From Dehalococcoidia bacterium (GTDB lineage: Bacteria > Chloroflexota > Dehalococcoidia > Bin125), in contig JAJDWB010000009.1 in the NCBI GenBank assembly GCA_022825855.1, positions 186,001 to 250,000 on the forward strand: 64,000 bases of DNA. The letters are read 5' to 3'. Made by a program: the position numbers and the translations under genes. Under the pieces are notes generated by a model. The model made no database searches. It worked only from the letters and a program-made list of their open reading frames with translations, and was not told the DNA's origin. Positions 31,517 through 60,211 of the stretch are shown one piece after another (the stretch's first letter is position 1; the number at the start of each line of letters is the position of its first letter).

Positions 31517-32620
31517 ATGTCCGATCGCGACAACCGAGCCGTCCGCCTCACCGACCTCGCCCGCTGCGGCGGTTGAGGCTCCAAGTTCGGCCCCGAAGGC
31601 CTGGCTCACGTGCTGAGCCATCTCGGACCACAGTTCCCGCCCGACGAGCACCCCGAGCTGCTCGTCGGACTCGCGCGTCCCGACGACGCCGCCGTCTATG
31701 CCATCGACGACCAGCGCGCGCTCGTCCAGACCCTCGACTTCTTCGCCCCGCTCGTTGACGACCCCTACCAGTTCGGCGCCATCGCCGCCGCCAACGCCAT
31801 GTCCGACGTCTACGCCATGGGCGGACGCGTCCTCTTCGCCCTCAACATCGCCGCCTTCCCCGAGGATCTCCCTCCCGACATCATCGCCGACGTCCTCCGC
31901 GGCGGAGCCGACAAGGTCCGCGAAGCCGGCGCAGTCATCGCCGGCGGACACACCATCATCGACGAGGAACCCAAGTACGGACTCGCCGTCACCGGCGAAG
32001 TCGCCCGCGACCTGATCCGCACCACCGGCGGCGCGCAGCCCGGCGACACCATCATCCTGACTAAGGAAATCGGCACCGGCGTCCTCATCGGAGCCAACCA
32101 GCAGGGCGCAGTCTCCGACGACCACTGGAACGCCGCCGTCAACCAGATGATGACCCTCAACCGCGACGCCGCCGAAGCCGCCTCCGATCCCGACCTCGCC
32201 GCCGGAGTCCACGCCATCGCCGACGTCACAGGATTCGGACTCGCCGGACACCTGCACGAAATGGCCGAACTCAGCGACGCCGCCATCGAGATCGACCTCG
32301 GCGCAGCCCCCGCCCTCGGCGGACTCGCCGAAGCCGTCGCCGCCGGATTCGGCTCCGGCGGTCAGTCCCGCAACCGCGAGTACTACGGCGCACGCCTCAC
32401 CGTCCACGGCAACCGCGAACTCACCACCTTCGAGGAAGCCCTCCTCTACGACCCCCAGACCTCCGGCGGCCTCCTGATCGCCGCCGGCACCGTCGAAGCC
32501 CCCCACCTGATCCACGAACTCCAACAGCGAGGCGTCACCGCCACACCCATAGCCCGCGTCACCGAACCCGCCTCCGGCGGACGCCTCAGCGTCAGTCCGC
32601 CCGAGAATCCCCGTGTCTGA
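31517..32620 (+). CDS. selD: Selenide water dikinase with in-frame TGA (selenocysteine)
   Basis: SelD makes selenophosphate from selenide and ATP, the selenium donor for tRNA-Sec. The reading starts at ATG 31517 and has TGA at codon 20 (31574-31576), exactly at the redox active site (CGGUGSK), where relatives have Cys or Sec. The rest is in frame and typical: RPDDAAVYAIDDQRALVQTLDFF, GAIAAANAMSDVYAMGG, GGHTIIDEEPKYGLAVTGEV and DPQTSGGLL. It is 367 residues long. The second active-site Cys of E. coli (C19) is Ser here. It overlaps lhgO by 8 nt. Confidence 0.9.
31602..31620 (+). promoter_or_regulatory. SECIS-like hairpin in selD
   Basis: TGGCTCA-CGTGC-TGAGCCA forms a 7-bp stem about 25 nt after the selD TGA, in the range of bacterial SECIS elements. 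The arms GGCTCA/TGAGCC are the same as those after two of the three thiol-oxidoreductase TGAs, but the loop is longer. Confidence 0.55.
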
Positions 32621-53293: not shown

Positions 53294-54724
53294 TCATGGG
53301 TCGGTCATCAGGGCGGCGCGGCCGAACTGGAGGGGGGTGTTCTTGATCCGGCGGGGCCTGAAGACTCTCGGCCGCTGGACGAGTTCGTGCATGTAGCGAT
53401 CGGCGTCGAGCAGGTCGTCGAGCTTCTTCACCGGCCTGGGACTCGCGCCCGACTCCTGCGCCCAGCGGTACTCGCGCATCCGCTCGGGGAACCGCTCGAG
53501 AGTGGGCGCGTAGAACGAGCGCGGCGGGTCGGCGGCCAGCCGGTCCTGCACCAGCGAGATGCCCCAGGCGACCGAGCCGTCGCCGCCGCGGCTGGGCACG
53601 ACGTCGATCCCCTGGCGGCGCTGATGGTCGATCCAGGCGCCCTGCGAGCGGTCGGCGCACCAGCGGATGCGGCCGAAGACCTGCCGGCAGCGCCGCTGCC
53701 ACTGCTCCAGGCGCTGGATCACGCCCTCGCCGCGCTCCTCGAACTCGTCCAGCCGAATCAGCACGTTGGGACCGCAGGCCGCGCGCGAGTCGGTGATCCC
53801 GGCGACGATCCCGGCGGTGTAGTGCGCGTCCTCCGACGGTCCGCCGAAGTCCAGCCCGCCGGCGTAGCGGACGAAGGGCGGCAGGGGACCGCTCCAGCGG
53901 TGCAGCCGAGGCTGGAAGCGGGCGTAGACCTGCCCGGCGAAGGCGTCGAAGCTGCCCTCGATGAAGCGCTCGACCCATTCGCCCCGGTGCAGGGCGCGCT
54001 GCTGCTCCGCGTAGTTGGGCGGCAAGTGCGGATTGTCGGCGATCCGCGCCGGGACGAAGACGACGCGGCCCTCGGCCAGCGCCAGCGACTGCTCGTCCAG
54101 CTCGCGCCGCACGAACCAGCGCTCGAACCAGCCCGGCCAGGGATTCGAGGCGGCCACGAACCAGCGCTGCTCCTGCGCCGGATGCCGCAGCCGCGTCAAC
54201 AGCATCTGCGCCGCCTCCTCCGCCACCTCCCCGGCTTCGTCGATCAGGACCGCGCCGTACTGCTGGGAGCCAAGGCCGGTCCAGTCGGAGAGATGGCGGA
54301 AGTTGACGGTCGACACCTGGCCGGGCGGCCACTTGGGCATGGCGAGCTGGACGAGGTTGGTGGGCTGCTGCTGGCGGCGGCGGATGAACTCAGGCGGGCA
54401 GACGGCGAAAAACTCGCGCATGGTGGTGGCGGAGAGATTGGTGAAGTCGTCGCGGGCGACGAGCACGTTGTTGCCCGGGTGCATGAGGGCCGCGTCGATG
54501 GCGAGTTCGACGATGGCCCGGGTTTTGCCGCCGCCCATGGCTCCGCCATACCCGACCAAGGCGAGGCCGGGCCTGGGGGCCAGGTTGAGCGCGTCGTACA
54601 GCTCGCGCTGCCGTGCCGTAGGAAAAAAACTGCGGAGGCCGTGGAGCGGGTGGCGCCCCTCGGCCCCGACCTCTCCCTCAGAGGGAGAGGAGGGATGCGG
54701 ATTAGGGTGGTTCGTCGTCGTCAT
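53294..54724 (-). CDS. Phage terminase large subunit
   Basis: The 476-residue ATPase/nuclease drives DNA into the empty head. Walker A is VGYGGAMGGGKTRAIVELAI, Walker B is YGAVLIDEAGEVAEE with the catalytic Glu, then the motif III-like WFVAASNPWPGW. The nuclease half has YAGGLDFGGPSEDAHYTAGI with acidic metal ligands. The first 20 residues (NPHPSSPSEGEVGAEG) are coded by a palindromic repeat at 54670, so the true start or N-terminus is uncertain. It overlaps the preceding small gene by 23 nt. Confidence 0.85.
   Translation of the reverse strand: MTTTNHPNPHPSSPSEGEVGAEGRHPLHGLRSFFPTARQRELYDALNLAPRPGLALVGYGGAMGGGKTRAIVELAIDAALMHPGNNVLVARDDFTNLSATTMREFFAVCPPEFIRRRQQQPTNLVQLAMPKWPPGQVSTVNFRHLSDWTGLGSQQYGAVLIDEAGEVAEEAAQMLLTRLRHPAQEQRWFVAASNPWPGWFERWFVRRELDEQSLALAEGRVVFVPARIADNPHLPPNYAEQQRALHRGEWVERFIEGSFDAFAGQVYARFQPRLHRWSGPLPPFVRYAGGLDFGGPSEDAHYTAGIVAGITDSRAACGPNVLIRLDEFEERGEGVIQRLEQWQRRCRQVFGRIRWCADRSQGAWIDHQRRQGIDVVPSRGGDGSVAWGISLVQDRLAADPPRSFYAPTLERFPERMREYRWAQESGASPRPVKKLDDLLDADRYMHELVQRPRVFRPRRIKNTPLQFGRAALMTDP
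54670..54690. repeat. Palindromic repeat at the terminase N-terminus
   Basis: CCTCTCCCT-CAG-AGGGAGAGG sits in frame near the start of the large terminase gene. It belongs with the copy in the fused CoA-transferase linker at 48486. Confidence 0.55.
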
Positions 54725-56001: not shown

Positions 56002-56730
56002 CTATCCCGATTCGGCGAGGTCTGTGACGAGGTCGATCAGGGCGTCGGCGGCGGAGGGGGCTCGCTGGCCGTTGACGGTGATCGCGGGGGTGCTGCTGAG
56101 ACCGTTGGCGACGGCGTCGAGATGCTGGTCGTAGATGCGGTCGATGTGGGTGCGGTCGTCGATGCACTGGGCGAACTGGCCGGTGTCGAGGCCGAAGTCG
56201 GCGGCGATCGCGACGGCGCCGTCGCGGGTGTAGGCCTCGCGGCCGGGGCGGGCGAAGTAGTGGTCGTGGAACTCCCACCAGTGGTCCTGGTCGCCGGCGC
56301 ACTCGGTGGCGAGCGCGGCCATCTCCGAGCTGACGCCGTGGTTGATGATGTGCCGGTACTCGAAGCGGGCGAGTCCGGTGGCGATCAGTTCTTGCTCGAT
56401 GCGCGGCCCAACCTGGGTCGCGAAGTGGCGGCAGCCGCCTCAAAGGAAGTCGGAGTACTCGGTGATCAGGATCGGCGCGTCGGGGCTGCCCAGCGTGGCG
56501 CGGCCGCGGACAACCTGGACGCGCGGCTGTTCCTCGGCCTGGGCGGGCTGAGCGGACTGAGCGGACTGGGCGGACTGCGGATCGCCAGCCTGGTAGGCCT
56601 GCGACTGCGCGGCCGAGGGCCGGGACTGCGAGTCGCCGCCGCAGGCGGCCGCGAGCAGGGCGCCCGCCACAAGCGCCGCCGCGAACACCGTCATATGCCT
56701 GCTGAGTCTGCTGAGTCTGGTGAGCATCAT
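56002..56730 (-). CDS. Selenocysteine DsbA-family lipoprotein 1
   Basis: The 242-residue protein has a lipoprotein signal (VFAAALVAGALLAAAC), a Gln/Ala/Ser-rich linker, then a DsbA-like (Thioredoxin_4) domain. The active site is DFLUGGC: TGA at codon 97 (56442-56440) is where the first Cys of CxxC would be. The frame stays open to the end, with cis-Pro in SSTPAITVNG. It overlaps the stop of gene 2. It would be an exposed thiol/selenol oxidoreductase. TGA here could in principle be a nonsense mutation, but three paralogues share it. Confidence 0.85.
56403..56421 (-). promoter_or_regulatory. SECIS-like hairpin of selenoprotein 1
   Basis: On the minus strand GCGACCCA-GGT-TGGGCCGC, an 8-bp stem with one mismatch, begins 18 nt after the TGA. 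Place and apical GGT loop match the hairpin of gene 3. Confidence 0.6.
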
Positions 56731-57473
56731 CCACCTTCTTCCGACTGGGCGGCCTCGGCCGCGGCTTTGACCTGATCGAGGATCGCGTTGACCGAGCGTC
56801 CACCGGGTTGTCCGTTGATGCGGAAGGTCGGGGTGCCTTCGACGCCCTCGGCGATCGCCTGCTGCTGCATCTGCAGGATGCGGTCGCGGTGTTCCTGGTT
56901 GTCGATGCACTGGGTGAATCGGGCGACGTTGAGGTCCTGGTCGCGGGCCAGGTCGATGGCGCCGGCGCGGGTGAAGCTGCGCGCCTGGGCGCGGAGCAGG
57001 TAGGCGTCGTGGAACTGCCACCAGGCGCCCTGGTCGCCGGCGCATTCGGTGGCCAGAGCGGCGAATTGGGAGGCGGGGCCGAAGACGATGAAGTGGCGGT
57101 ACTCGTAGCGGGCGAGTCCGGTGCGAATCGCTTCTTCGATGATCAGCGGCTCAAACTGAGCCGCGAAACTGCGGCAGCTTGGTCACTGGAAGTCGGAGTA
57201 CTCGACGATCAGCACGGGCGCGTCGGGATCGCCGACGACGTTGCGGGTGAAGGGCAGGCCCTCGCGGTGTCCGAAGGTGATCTCGGCGGGGATGTCGAAC
57301 TCGATGCCGGACTGGGCGACGGCGGCGTCCTGCTGCTGCATGATCGAGGCCTGGCGGTACTGGCGCTCGCTGCGCGGGGTGTCGCCGGTGGAGGGCGCGC
57401 CGCCCGAGCCGCAGGCGGCGATCAGGACGGCGGCCACGGCCGCGATCGCCAGCAGGCAGAGGGAGCGGGTCAT
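56727..57473 (-). CDS. Selenocysteine DsbA-family lipoprotein 2
   Basis: The 248-residue protein has signal LLAIAAVAAVLIAAC, then a linker and the DsbA-like domain NVVGDPDAPVLIVEYSDFQ followed by U (TGA, codon 97, 57185-57183) and PSC, so U-P-S-C. Later blocks are YEYRHFIVFG, ALATECAGDQGAWWQFHDAY and cis-Pro EGTPTFRING. It overlaps the next gene by 4 nt, and lies 45 nt from gene 3, so the three form an operon. Confidence 0.85.
57146..57164 (-). promoter_or_regulatory. SECIS-like hairpin of selenoprotein 2
   Basis: On the minus strand GCGGCTCA-GTT-TGAGCCGC is a perfect 8-bp stem starting 18 nt after the TGA. Loop and arms are close to the gene 3 hairpin. Confidence 0.65.
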
Positions 57474-57518
57474 GCGTCGAGCGTACTCCAGATGGGTCGG
57501 CGGGGACGGGCGCAGGCG

Positions 57519-58283
57519 TTACTCGCCGGCTGCGGCGGCGGACTCGACGGCGGACTTGATCTCGTCCCAGACCGGGTCGACGCGGACGCCGTCGACGAAG
57601 ACGGTGGGCGTGGCCTGGACGCCGCGCTGGCCGCCTTCCTCGTAGGAGGCGCTGACGATCGGGAAGGTCTCGCCGTTCTCGATGCAGGCCCAGAAGCGGT
57701 CGGCGTCAAGTCCTTCAAAGGTGGCCTGGCGGTTGAGGCCGAGCTCGGTGAAGAGCGTCTCGTCGCCGGCCATGAAGCGATCGTGGAAGGGCCAGAAGGC
57801 GCCCTGCTCGGCGGCGCACTCGACGACCACGGCGGCAAAGACGGCGTCGTCGCCAAGGACGGGCATGTGTCGGAACTCGAAGCGGGCGATGCCGGTGGCG
57901 ACGAACTGTTCCAGGATCTGCGGCTCAACCTGAGCCGAGAATTGCTGGCAGAACGGTCAAGTGAAGTCGCCGTAGTACTCGATCAGGACGGGCGCATCGG
58001 GCTCGCCGAGCAGGTTGCGCTGGCTGCGCAGTCCCTTGTGCTCGCCGACGGCGTCGGTCGGCAGTGGCTCGGTCTGGGCGTCGTCCTGGGCGTCGGGCTG
58101 GGGCTGTTCGGCCGCCGCGGACTGCTCAGGCTGCAGCTGTGCCCGCTGCTGCTGGGAAACGGTCGCCTCGCGCTCGGCGCGCTGGGAGGTCTGGGTGGCG
58201 GTCGACCGGGGCGGGTCGTCACCGGAGCCGCAGGCGATGACGAAGGCGGCAACCAGAACCAGGCCCGCAAGCAGGGATCGCAT
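57519..58283 (-). CDS. Selenocysteine DsbA-family lipoprotein 3
   Basis: The 254-residue protein has signal GLVLVAAFVIAC, a Gln/Ala/Asp-rich linker, then LLGEPDAPVLIEYYGDFT followed by U (TGA, codon 109, 57959-57957) and PFC, so U-P-F-C. After it come EFRHMPVLGDDAV, ECAAEQGAFWPFHDRF and cis-Pro VQATPTVFVDG. It is the first gene of the three-gene operon on the minus strand. With two other copies it would form a set of outer-face selenol oxidoreductases, possibly for disulfide formation or peroxide/thiol defence. Confidence 0.85.
57921..57937 (-). promoter_or_regulatory. SECIS-like hairpin of selenoprotein 3
   Basis: On the minus strand CGGCTCA-GGT-TGAGCCG is a perfect 7-bp stem starting about 19 nt after the TGA, with an apical GGT as in known bacterial SECIS loops. 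Confidence 0.65.
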
Positions 58284-58359: not shown

Positions 58360-60024
58360 TCAGCCGCGGAGGCGGGACATCTCGTCGCGGAGCTGTTGCA
58401 GGCTCATGGGGCCGAGGTCGAGGGCGGCCTGGTGGAAGCTCTTGAGGTCGAAGGCGTCGCCGAGGGAGTCGCGGGCGGCCTCGCGGGCGGCGAGCCACTC
58501 TCGTTCGCCGACCTTGTAGGAGATCGCCTGGCCGGGCCAGCCGAGGTAGCGGTCGACCTCGCTGGCGAGCATCTGCTCGGGGAAGAAGGAGCGCTCGATG
58601 AGGAAGGGCAGGGCGAGCTCGGGGGTCCAGATCTCGCCGCCGTGGTAGGGCTCGCGCTCGGGGATCGGCAGTTCGAGGTGCATGCCGATGTCGATCACGA
58701 CGCGCACGGCTCGCAGCGCCTGGCTGCTGAGCAGGCCCATGTAGTAGGCCGGGTCCTCGAGGTAGCCGAGTTCGGCCATCAGCCGCTCGGCGTAGAGCGC
58801 CCAGCCCTCGACGTAGCCGGAGGTGCCGGCCAGCAGTCGCTGATAGCGGGTGAGCTGCTCGCCGAGGTAGCGGGTCGTGCCGATCTGCAGGTGGTGTCCG
58901 GGAACGCCCTCGTGATAGCAGACGGAGAGTTCACGCCAGAGCGGGAAGCGAGTCGCGCCGCCGGTCGGATACCAGGTCCGGCCGGGCCGGGAGAAGTCCT
59001 CGGAGGGTCCGGTGTAGTACATGGCCAGCGCGCCGCCGGGCGGGGCGATCATCGCTTCGATCCGCTGGACGGGGTCGGCGATGTCGAAGTGCGTGCCGAG
59101 CAGCGCCTGCATCGTCTGGTCCTGGGTCTGCTGCATCCAGTCGCGGAAGGCGTCCTCGCCCTCGATGGCGCGCTCGTCGTCGGATTCGAGCATGGCGATC
59201 GCCTCGGCGACGGTCGCGCCGGGCGAGATCCGTTCGGCGGTCTCGGCCATCTCGGACTGGATGCGCCAGACCTCTTCCCAGCCCCACTGGTAGGTCTCGT
59301 CGAGGTCCAGCTCGATCCCGTTGAAACCGCGCGAGGCGGCCTGGTAACGGTCGCGGCCGACCGGGTCGCGAGGGTTGGCCCTGGGCAGATACTCGGTCTC
59401 GAGCCAGTTGGCCATCGCGGCATATCCCTGCTCGGCGGCGGTGGCCTGCTCGCCGCCGTCAATGCCGAGGCTGTCGCAGAGCTGTTGAAAGAAGGATGGG
59501 CTCTCGCCGGCGCCCGACCAGACGCGGCACTGTTCGATGCCGCCGCGGACCTGGCGCTGGGCGACGACGATGCCCTGTTCCATGCCGGCGGCCAGGGAGG
59601 CCCGGTAGCGGTCCAGGGCCTCGGGCACCGCGCCCATACGCTCGACGAGGCGGGCCTGGTCTTGCTCGGTCTCGCGGGGCATGAGGTCGAAGACCTGGCG
59701 CGTGTTCTGCAGCGGCGAGGCGAGGATGTTGAGCGAGCGCAGGTGCTCCTGCTGCGCTTCCAGTTCGGCCTCATAGGCGAAGCGCTCCAGCATCACGTCG
59801 CGTGCGACGCGATCGCGCTCGGTCTCGACCTCGACGCGGCGCAGCGCCGCCTCCGCGGCGCGGCGGACGTCGGCGCGCTGTTCGTGGCCGTCAGGCGAGT
59901 AGTCGGTCAGCTCGGTCTCGCGGCCGGGGATGCCCAGCGACGTGGCGAGGTTCGGATGCGCGGCGGCGAGCGCGTCCACGTACCAGTCGGAGATGGCCGA
60001 TACCGAGGTGAGTTCGTTGCTCAT
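58360..60024 (-). CDS. DUF885-family metallopeptidase-like protein
   Basis: The 554-residue protein has the family's zinc motif SVCYHEGVPGHHLQ with an HExxxGHH arrangement, then GTSGYVEGWALYAERLM and SQALRAVRVVIDIGMHLELP. The family resembles M32/M3-like peptidases and is usually cytoplasmic or periplasmic. No signal peptide is seen from the ATG at 60024, so it may be cytoplasmic; the longer frame is not a better start. It diverges from the portal-like gene. Confidence 0.85.
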   Translation of the reverse strand: MSNELTSVSAISDWYVDALAAAHPNLATSLGIPGRETELTDYSPDGHEQRADVRRAAEAALRRVEVETERDRVARDVMLERFAYEAELEAQQEHLRSLNILASPLQNTRQVFDLMPRETEQDQARLVERMGAVPEALDRYRASLAAGMEQGIVVAQRQVRGGIEQCRVWSGAGESPSFFQQLCDSLGIDGGEQATAAEQGYAAMANWLETEYLPRANPRDPVGRDRYQAASRGFNGIELDLDETYQWGWEEVWRIQSEMAETAERISPGATVAEAIAMLESDDERAIEGEDAFRDWMQQTQDQTMQALLGTHFDIADPVQRIEAMIAPPGGALAMYYTGPSEDFSRPGRTWYPTGGATRFPLWRELSVCYHEGVPGHHLQIGTTRYLGEQLTRYQRLLAGTSGYVEGWALYAERLMAELGYLEDPAYYMGLLSSQALRAVRVVIDIGMHLELPIPEREPYHGGEIWTPELALPFLIERSFFPEQMLASEVDRYLGWPGQAISYKVGEREWLAAREAARDSLGDAFDLKSFHQAALDLGPMSLQQLRDEMSRLRG

Positions 60025-60211
60025 CGTGTGTCCCGTTCCATGCGTTGGGTTGCTTGCGAGTGACAGTTTCGCATCCAATGTGAAGTCGGACGTTGTGGCT
60101 GTCGAGAGCTCAGTCTGTCCACAACATCCACAGGTCATTCACGATTGGCGTGGAATTTCGGGCACAGAAGATGGAGTGGGGGCTCCAACCGCACATGCTT
60201 TCTGCTAATGT

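Follow-up and report, generated by a model that had tools for sequence, protein, structure and literature searches.

The window considered here is a stretch of 64,000 nucleotides from the genome of a Dehalococcoidia bacterium (contig JAJDWB010000009.1, positions 186,001 to 250,000), whose assembly comprises 2.8 Mb in 22 contigs and is 96% complete. Three adjacent genes on its minus strand, denoted A, B and C, are predicted to encode exported proteins of the Thioredoxin_4/DsbA-like type. The features of this array, together with the selD gene of the same window, are the following (U, Sec: selenocysteine).

57519..58283 (-): gene A, 254 codons, predicted exported lipoprotein, Thioredoxin_4/DsbA-like, putative Sec109 in U-P-F-C
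57957..57959 (-): putative Sec TGA codon of gene A, codon 109
57920..57938 (-): SECIS-like hairpin of gene A, TCGGCTC AGGTT GAGCCGC
56727..57473 (-): gene B, 248 codons, predicted exported lipoprotein, Thioredoxin_4/DsbA-like, putative Sec97 in U-P-S-C
57183..57185 (-): putative Sec TGA codon of gene B, codon 97
57146..57164 (-): SECIS-like hairpin of gene B, GCGGCTC AGTTT GAGCCGC
56002..56730 (-): gene C, 242 codons, predicted exported protein and probable lipoprotein, Thioredoxin_4/DsbA-like, putative Sec97 in U-G-G-C
56440..56442 (-): putative Sec TGA codon of gene C, codon 97
56403..56421 (-): SECIS-like hairpin of gene C, GCGACCC AGGTT GGGCCGC
58360..60138 (-): DUF885 gene, directly upstream of the array, a conserved neighbour in the genus
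31517..32620 (+): selD, selenide water dikinase, predicted Sec protein with TGA 31574-31576 in CGG-U-GSK and a hairpin at about 31602-31620

Each of the three frames contains exactly one internal TGA, located where the CxxC motif begins, and continues past it to a normal stop by way of a cis-Pro loop (ATP, GTP and STP in A, B and C). The matches to the Pfam family Thioredoxin_4 (PF13462) span the TGA and reach 98.8, 96.2 and 77 bits, respectively, against a gathering cut-off of 23.2. The layout is common to all three proteins: a signal sequence, a lipobox cysteine, a linker, and a single Thioredoxin_4 domain. A preliminary description of this DNA had reported three tandem minus-strand DsbA/Thioredoxin_4 genes with one in-frame TGA (codons 97, 97 and 109) in place of the first cysteine and a frame that runs to a normal end with a cis-Pro loop; coordinates and reading were the same when the sequence was re-read. 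It had also called all three products lipoproteins, which fits A (VIAC) and B (IAAC), whose lipobox is clear by eye, whereas that of C (AAAC) is weaker. Genes A and B are separated by 45 bases and the ATG of gene C overlaps the stop of gene B (ATGA), hence A, B and C are probably expressed as one transcript. DUF885 flanks the copies in the genus, most of which are in tandem, on one side; we do not propose it as a part of the mechanism. A further open reading frame of the window, at 53294-54724 (-), resembles a phage terminase-like ATPase (GGAMGGGKTRA), and a similar protein is found elsewhere in the host genome (G000 C22:362220).

Conservation and related families

Thioredoxin_4 is matched four times in the host genome, and every matching gene contains a single TGA. 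One of these copies, the fourth, lies on a different contig (G000 C7:52547-53011; L021), reads UPAC and has a different N-terminal region, which is long, shows an apparent internal repeat (RLFPxGT...STPV) and is without lipobox. Four to five copies with one TGA apiece, mostly in tandem, are found in 13 of 14 relatives of the same genus; in the fourteenth, an assembly of 470 contigs, the Thioredoxin_4 search gave no copy. The TGA occupies the same column in 65 of 65 distinct family sites from 16 genomes, which, together with the four of four copies in the host, excludes a TGA by chance. Stop-free frames in close relatives, which the preliminary description had named as evidence of a local mutation, do not occur, as every copy in the genus has the TGA at this position. 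In homologues outside the family that carry cysteine instead, an alignment places this cysteine in exactly the TGA column, as is characteristic of a selenoprotein gene.

Outside the family there are fewer copies, which carry Sec or Cys depending on the genome, and DsbA-like genes with Sec are found singly in other Chloroflexota. Among the matches listed for 197 sampled genomes of the class, adjacent TGA-bearing copies are found solely in this family, in agreement with the earlier remark that a tandem set of three is unusual. A quick tree separates the 65 family sequences from the rest by a single branch (SH-aLRT 91) and resolves them into five paralogue clades (support 97-100); the duplications are therefore older than the genus. 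No reversion to Cys is seen among these 65 sequences. Database records that contain the same arrays are named Dehalococcoidia or Chloroflexota metagenome bins. Another Chloroflexota bin encodes a lipoprotein in one frame (L158:5013-6698) with three consecutive DsbA-like domains, two of which would carry Sec (UPFC, UPAC), while the third is without CxxC.

DsbA-like and DsbG-like selenoproteins have been described as families before (PMC1088965, PMC1794560, PMC9312934, PMC13188914), and the preliminary description had stated that DsbA-like ones are known from some bacteria. Those of the Sargasso Sea and genome surveys (PMC1088965, PMC1794560, PMC9312934) have UxxC at the DsbA active site and a bacterial SECIS in common with the genes considered here. 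A tandem all-Sec set is not mentioned in the searched portions of these three papers. What DsbA-like selenoproteins and others with a thioredoxin fold do in prokaryotes is still largely uncharacterised (PMC13188914). The closest named family is NF041057 of NCBIfam (Rcas_1661 family thioredoxin-like (seleno)lipoprotein), which appears as a 'DsbG-like protein' with UxxC in the same publication and likewise comprises exported thioredoxin-like lipoproteins. UxxC is present in A, B and C (the lipobox as given above), and their matches to this family are strong in terms of E-value (5e-34 to 1e-41), yet the scores of 118, 135.4 and 142.7 bits stay under the curated cut-off of 190. Among the matches listed, none of the 197 sampled genomes of the class passes this cut-off. 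The array differs from NF041057 in having three to five Sec paralogues per genome, mostly in tandem. Literature searches on Rcas_1661 and on selenocysteine in SAR202 gave nothing direct.

Decoding of the TGA codon

The machinery for selenocysteine is complete, with selA, selB, selC and selD all in one genome, as expected for a host of selenoprotein genes. The preliminary description had named selA, selB and selC as the genes to look for: SelA matches with 414.6 bits, SelB with 344.5 bits (curated cut-off 242) and tRNA-Sec with 70.2 bits (Rfam cut-off 47), such that the possible objection of a missing selB or selC falls away. The fourth component, SelD (358 bits), is encoded in the window itself, as previously noted, and the in-frame TGA of its gene corresponds to a position where SelD often carries Sec.

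The hairpin downstream of the TGA keeps a fixed register, from TGA+22 to TGA+40, and reads (G)CGGCUC-AGGUU-GAGCCG(C) or a variant thereof. A clear departure from this consensus is seen in one of 65 family sites (L068:6904). The loop is AGGUU in 45 of the 65 sites and its G at column 30 is invariant, giving A, B and C the conserved loop G of a SECIS element. Compared to shuffles of synonymous codons, nucleotides 15-48 fold more stably (mean z = -2.27, below -1 in 58 of the 65 sites). For 11 Cys homologues the corresponding z is -0.19, and for windows taken downstream within the Sec genes themselves it is about 0. In an alignment of 34 chosen sequences, 92% of stem cells are paired versus 31-42% with one arm slid. 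Both sides have changed in three of the seven stem pairs (best supported for a U-A pair, which also occurs as C-G and G-C), and a compensatory change from G-C to A-U is seen as well, where the 34 sequences are related and the changes counted are non-independent events; the pair of columns 25/37 is unpaired in 10 of the 34. A covariance model of the hairpin ranks the four DsbA-like Sec genes of the host first (E 1.6e-18 to 4e-15), the next match having E = 0.004, and its search of the genome gave no convincing SECIS beyond these four TGAs. Among the weaker matches (E 0.004-0.6), those on the stored strand that start with TGA have no sensible read-through frame. We note that the stem-loop also codes for the peptide FAAQVEP, which is absent from the Cys homologues, and so offers a clear example in which an RNA signal has shaped the sequence of a protein.

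An alternative is that the TGAs are real stops, due to pseudogenes or assembly errors, or that TGA is reassigned throughout the genome. Beyond the fact that the frames are open solely with TGA read as a residue, nothing speaks for this alternative, and we consider it extremely improbable. A local mutation or assembly error is ruled out by the identical TGA column in 65 distinct sites of 16 genomes, and the SECIS statistics contradict a stop as well. Genome-wide reassignment is ruled out by the presence of RF2 (encoded at about 11.5-12.6 kb, with a CTTTGA frameshift site) and by several genes that terminate in TGA, among them gene B and selD. Since TGA still acts as a stop, recoding must be local. 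From these sequence data, decoding of the TGA in A, B and C as selenocysteine appears very well supported, and we regard it as close to certain.

A read-through scan for further selenoproteins covered about 1.15 Mb of the genome in two passes and is non-exhaustive, as the second pass missed gene C and the C7 copy. Besides gene B and a UGSC-type protein, the strict first pass returned three sites that are implausible; the second pass recovered gene A, gene B, selD and again the UGSC-type protein. The latter is a candidate selenoprotein (G000 C10:264483; L255) with the sequence ALAD-U-G-S-C-TTCSVHD, resembling the UGSC-motif family. In one stretch of the assembly (G000 C16:300000-360000; L239-L241) the G+C content, otherwise about 0.66, jumps to 0.70-0.71, and the style of the gene starts also looks different; it is likely a binning contamination or an island.

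Fold, partners and proposed function

The AlphaFold model of gene B has a pLDDT of 96-98 across the domain and predicts a thioredoxin fold with a helical insertion, UxxC and cis-Pro, the combination expected of a DsbA/BdbD-type oxidase. Its best solved structural match is Bacillus subtilis BdbD (Z 21.1, rmsd 2.2, 168 residues), followed by TsdA/DsbA of Corynebacterium diphtheriae (Z 19.6). Both are monomeric extracytoplasmic oxidoreductases with Cys at the active site, where A, B and C would have Sec. Across 22 sequences, ten columns show no variation; among them are those of the U/C pair, of C144 and C189, and of the cis-Pro P215 (gene B numbering). The second pair, C144/C189, is located on helices in positions similar to the structural disulfide of Mycobacterium tuberculosis DsbA (Rv2969c), a member of the same superfamily; such a non-catalytic pair on helices is described for this protein and for Wolbachia alpha-DsbA1 (PMC3792642). 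It is highly probable that A, B and C are exported thiol oxidoreductases.

BdbD works with a DsbB-type partner, for which no counterpart was found in this family. M. tuberculosis DsbA, a Cys enzyme, works with VKOR. A search for VKOR gave no match in 20 genomes of the family and a search for DsbB none in the 19 family genomes searched; the partner of a typical DsbA/BdbD-type oxidase was thus not found, where a distant or unrecognised one may exist. In other families of the class, the DsbA-like gene, either Sec or Cys, often adjoins VKOR. MauE was considered as a VKOR-like partner; the weak matches in the genus are to a DoxX/MauE-like protein without CxxC in its sequence. A DsbD_TM (CcdA-like) protein is found in every family genome searched.

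G000 C22:125989-126828 (126226-126801 within; L199:4490-5329): DsbD_TM/CcdA-like protein of the host genome

In the one genome searched for linkage, this gene is unlinked to the array. Its SPCVLPLVP segment is C-terminal, after a WTPC segment, as if circularly permuted, and this order of the matched pieces recurs in other genomes. A possible selenocysteine VKOR was observed in one genome (L069:3949; G026 C216:25624-26001), in which the CxxC reads U-P-W-C via an in-frame TGA; a strong hairpin lies downstream of this TGA and the gene is located directly after a Sec DsbA-like gene. VKOR is not mentioned in a 2026 review that was searched, and a literature search on VKOR with selenoproteins gave nothing direct.

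The redox state outside the cell can be approached by cysteine counts, as has been done likewise for disulfides in mycobacteria (PMC12421883). In about 1.1 Mb of the genome, with a suspect stretch and haem proteins removed, the number of cysteines is even in 10 of 11 Cys-bearing exported proteins, as compared to 269 of 593 cytosolic ones (269:324, p = 0.0036), a comparison that involves just 11 exported proteins, a home-made gene caller and a crude signal prediction. The bias suggests that disulfides form outside.

We propose the following scheme, to which we assign a probability of about 0.5 as a whole. Ribosomes would read the TGA as Sec using SelB and the hairpin that follows. After export, a lipid anchor, clear in A and B and likely in C, would tether the products to the membrane from outside. 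A flexible linker would carry the catalytic domain, which is predicted to fold like the monomeric oxidases of the DsbA type (BdbD, actinobacterial DsbA). The Sec site is established for the family as the exposed, attacking position of the motif. The target of Sec, as N-terminal nucleophile of UxxC, would be a thiol, a disulfide or an oxidised sulfur of the substrate, and the resulting selenenyl-sulfide would be resolved by the second Cys. The most likely role, that of an oxidase/isomerase, would be the making and repair of disulfides in exported proteins, where each paralogue may serve different substrates. Given the lack of a match to VKOR or DsbB, the enzymes would need an unconventional route of re-oxidation, such as a direct reaction with peroxide or oxygen via a selenenic acid, or a membrane partner that has escaped recognition. 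Sequence and statistics provide the Sec signals, the conservation, the predicted fold and the lack of a VKOR or DsbB match, whilst export, substrates, direction of electron flow and re-oxidation are inferred.

Against a role as oxidase, the usual re-oxidant of a DsbA was not found in the family, and every family genome searched has a conduit of the CcdA/DsbD type, normally a source of electrons for reductases. Moreover, selenenyl-sulfides exceed disulfides in reducing character, a poor fit for a strong oxidase. The same selenoproteins may then act as extracytoplasmic reductases that receive electrons from cytosolic thioredoxin via the CcdA/DsbD-type protein and keep exported thiols or cytochrome cysteines reduced, or repair oxidised cysteines, with a function similar to TlpA, CcmG or DsbG. 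We take this to be a serious alternative with roughly one chance in three. It agrees with the lowered redox potential of a CxxC centre that contains Sec and with the dipeptide between U and C, which in several paralogues is GG, GN or PN as opposed to the PH of strong oxidases. A predicted fold closest to monomeric oxidases argues the other way, as do the lack of linkage between array and CcdA-like gene in the genome searched and the oxidising compartment suggested by the even-Cys bias and the invariant second Cys pair. Disulfides thus apparently form outside in the absence of a recognised VKOR or DsbB, which leaves either an unusual re-oxidation of the Sec enzymes, or another oxidant together with Sec reductases fed by CcdA.

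Improbable in our view, with a likelihood well below that of reductases, is a role as cell-surface Sec-dependent peroxidases or detoxification enzymes on a DsbA scaffold, acting on peroxide, sulfenic acids or metal(loid)s. Sec at the attacking position favours peroxide chemistry, and the same genome encodes the UGSC-type candidate; nevertheless, the proteins retain the cis-Pro along with both UxxC positions, in the manner of enzymes of disulfide exchange, and no peroxidase family was matched.

New, as far as we found, are the conserved tandem set of all-Sec paralogues and the missing re-oxidase. Returning to the proposed disulfide-forming role, a far-reaching version of it would be a selenium-dependent oxidative folding, in which Sec-DsbA paralogues on the outer face replace DsbA plus VKOR or DsbB, and Sec permits re-oxidation by peroxide or O2; we consider this version unlikely, at odds of about four to one against. 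An old set of multiple paralogues, all Sec across the genus, coincides with no detectable VKOR or DsbB, and this raises a testable question: can Sec stand in for the membrane re-oxidase in disulfide formation?
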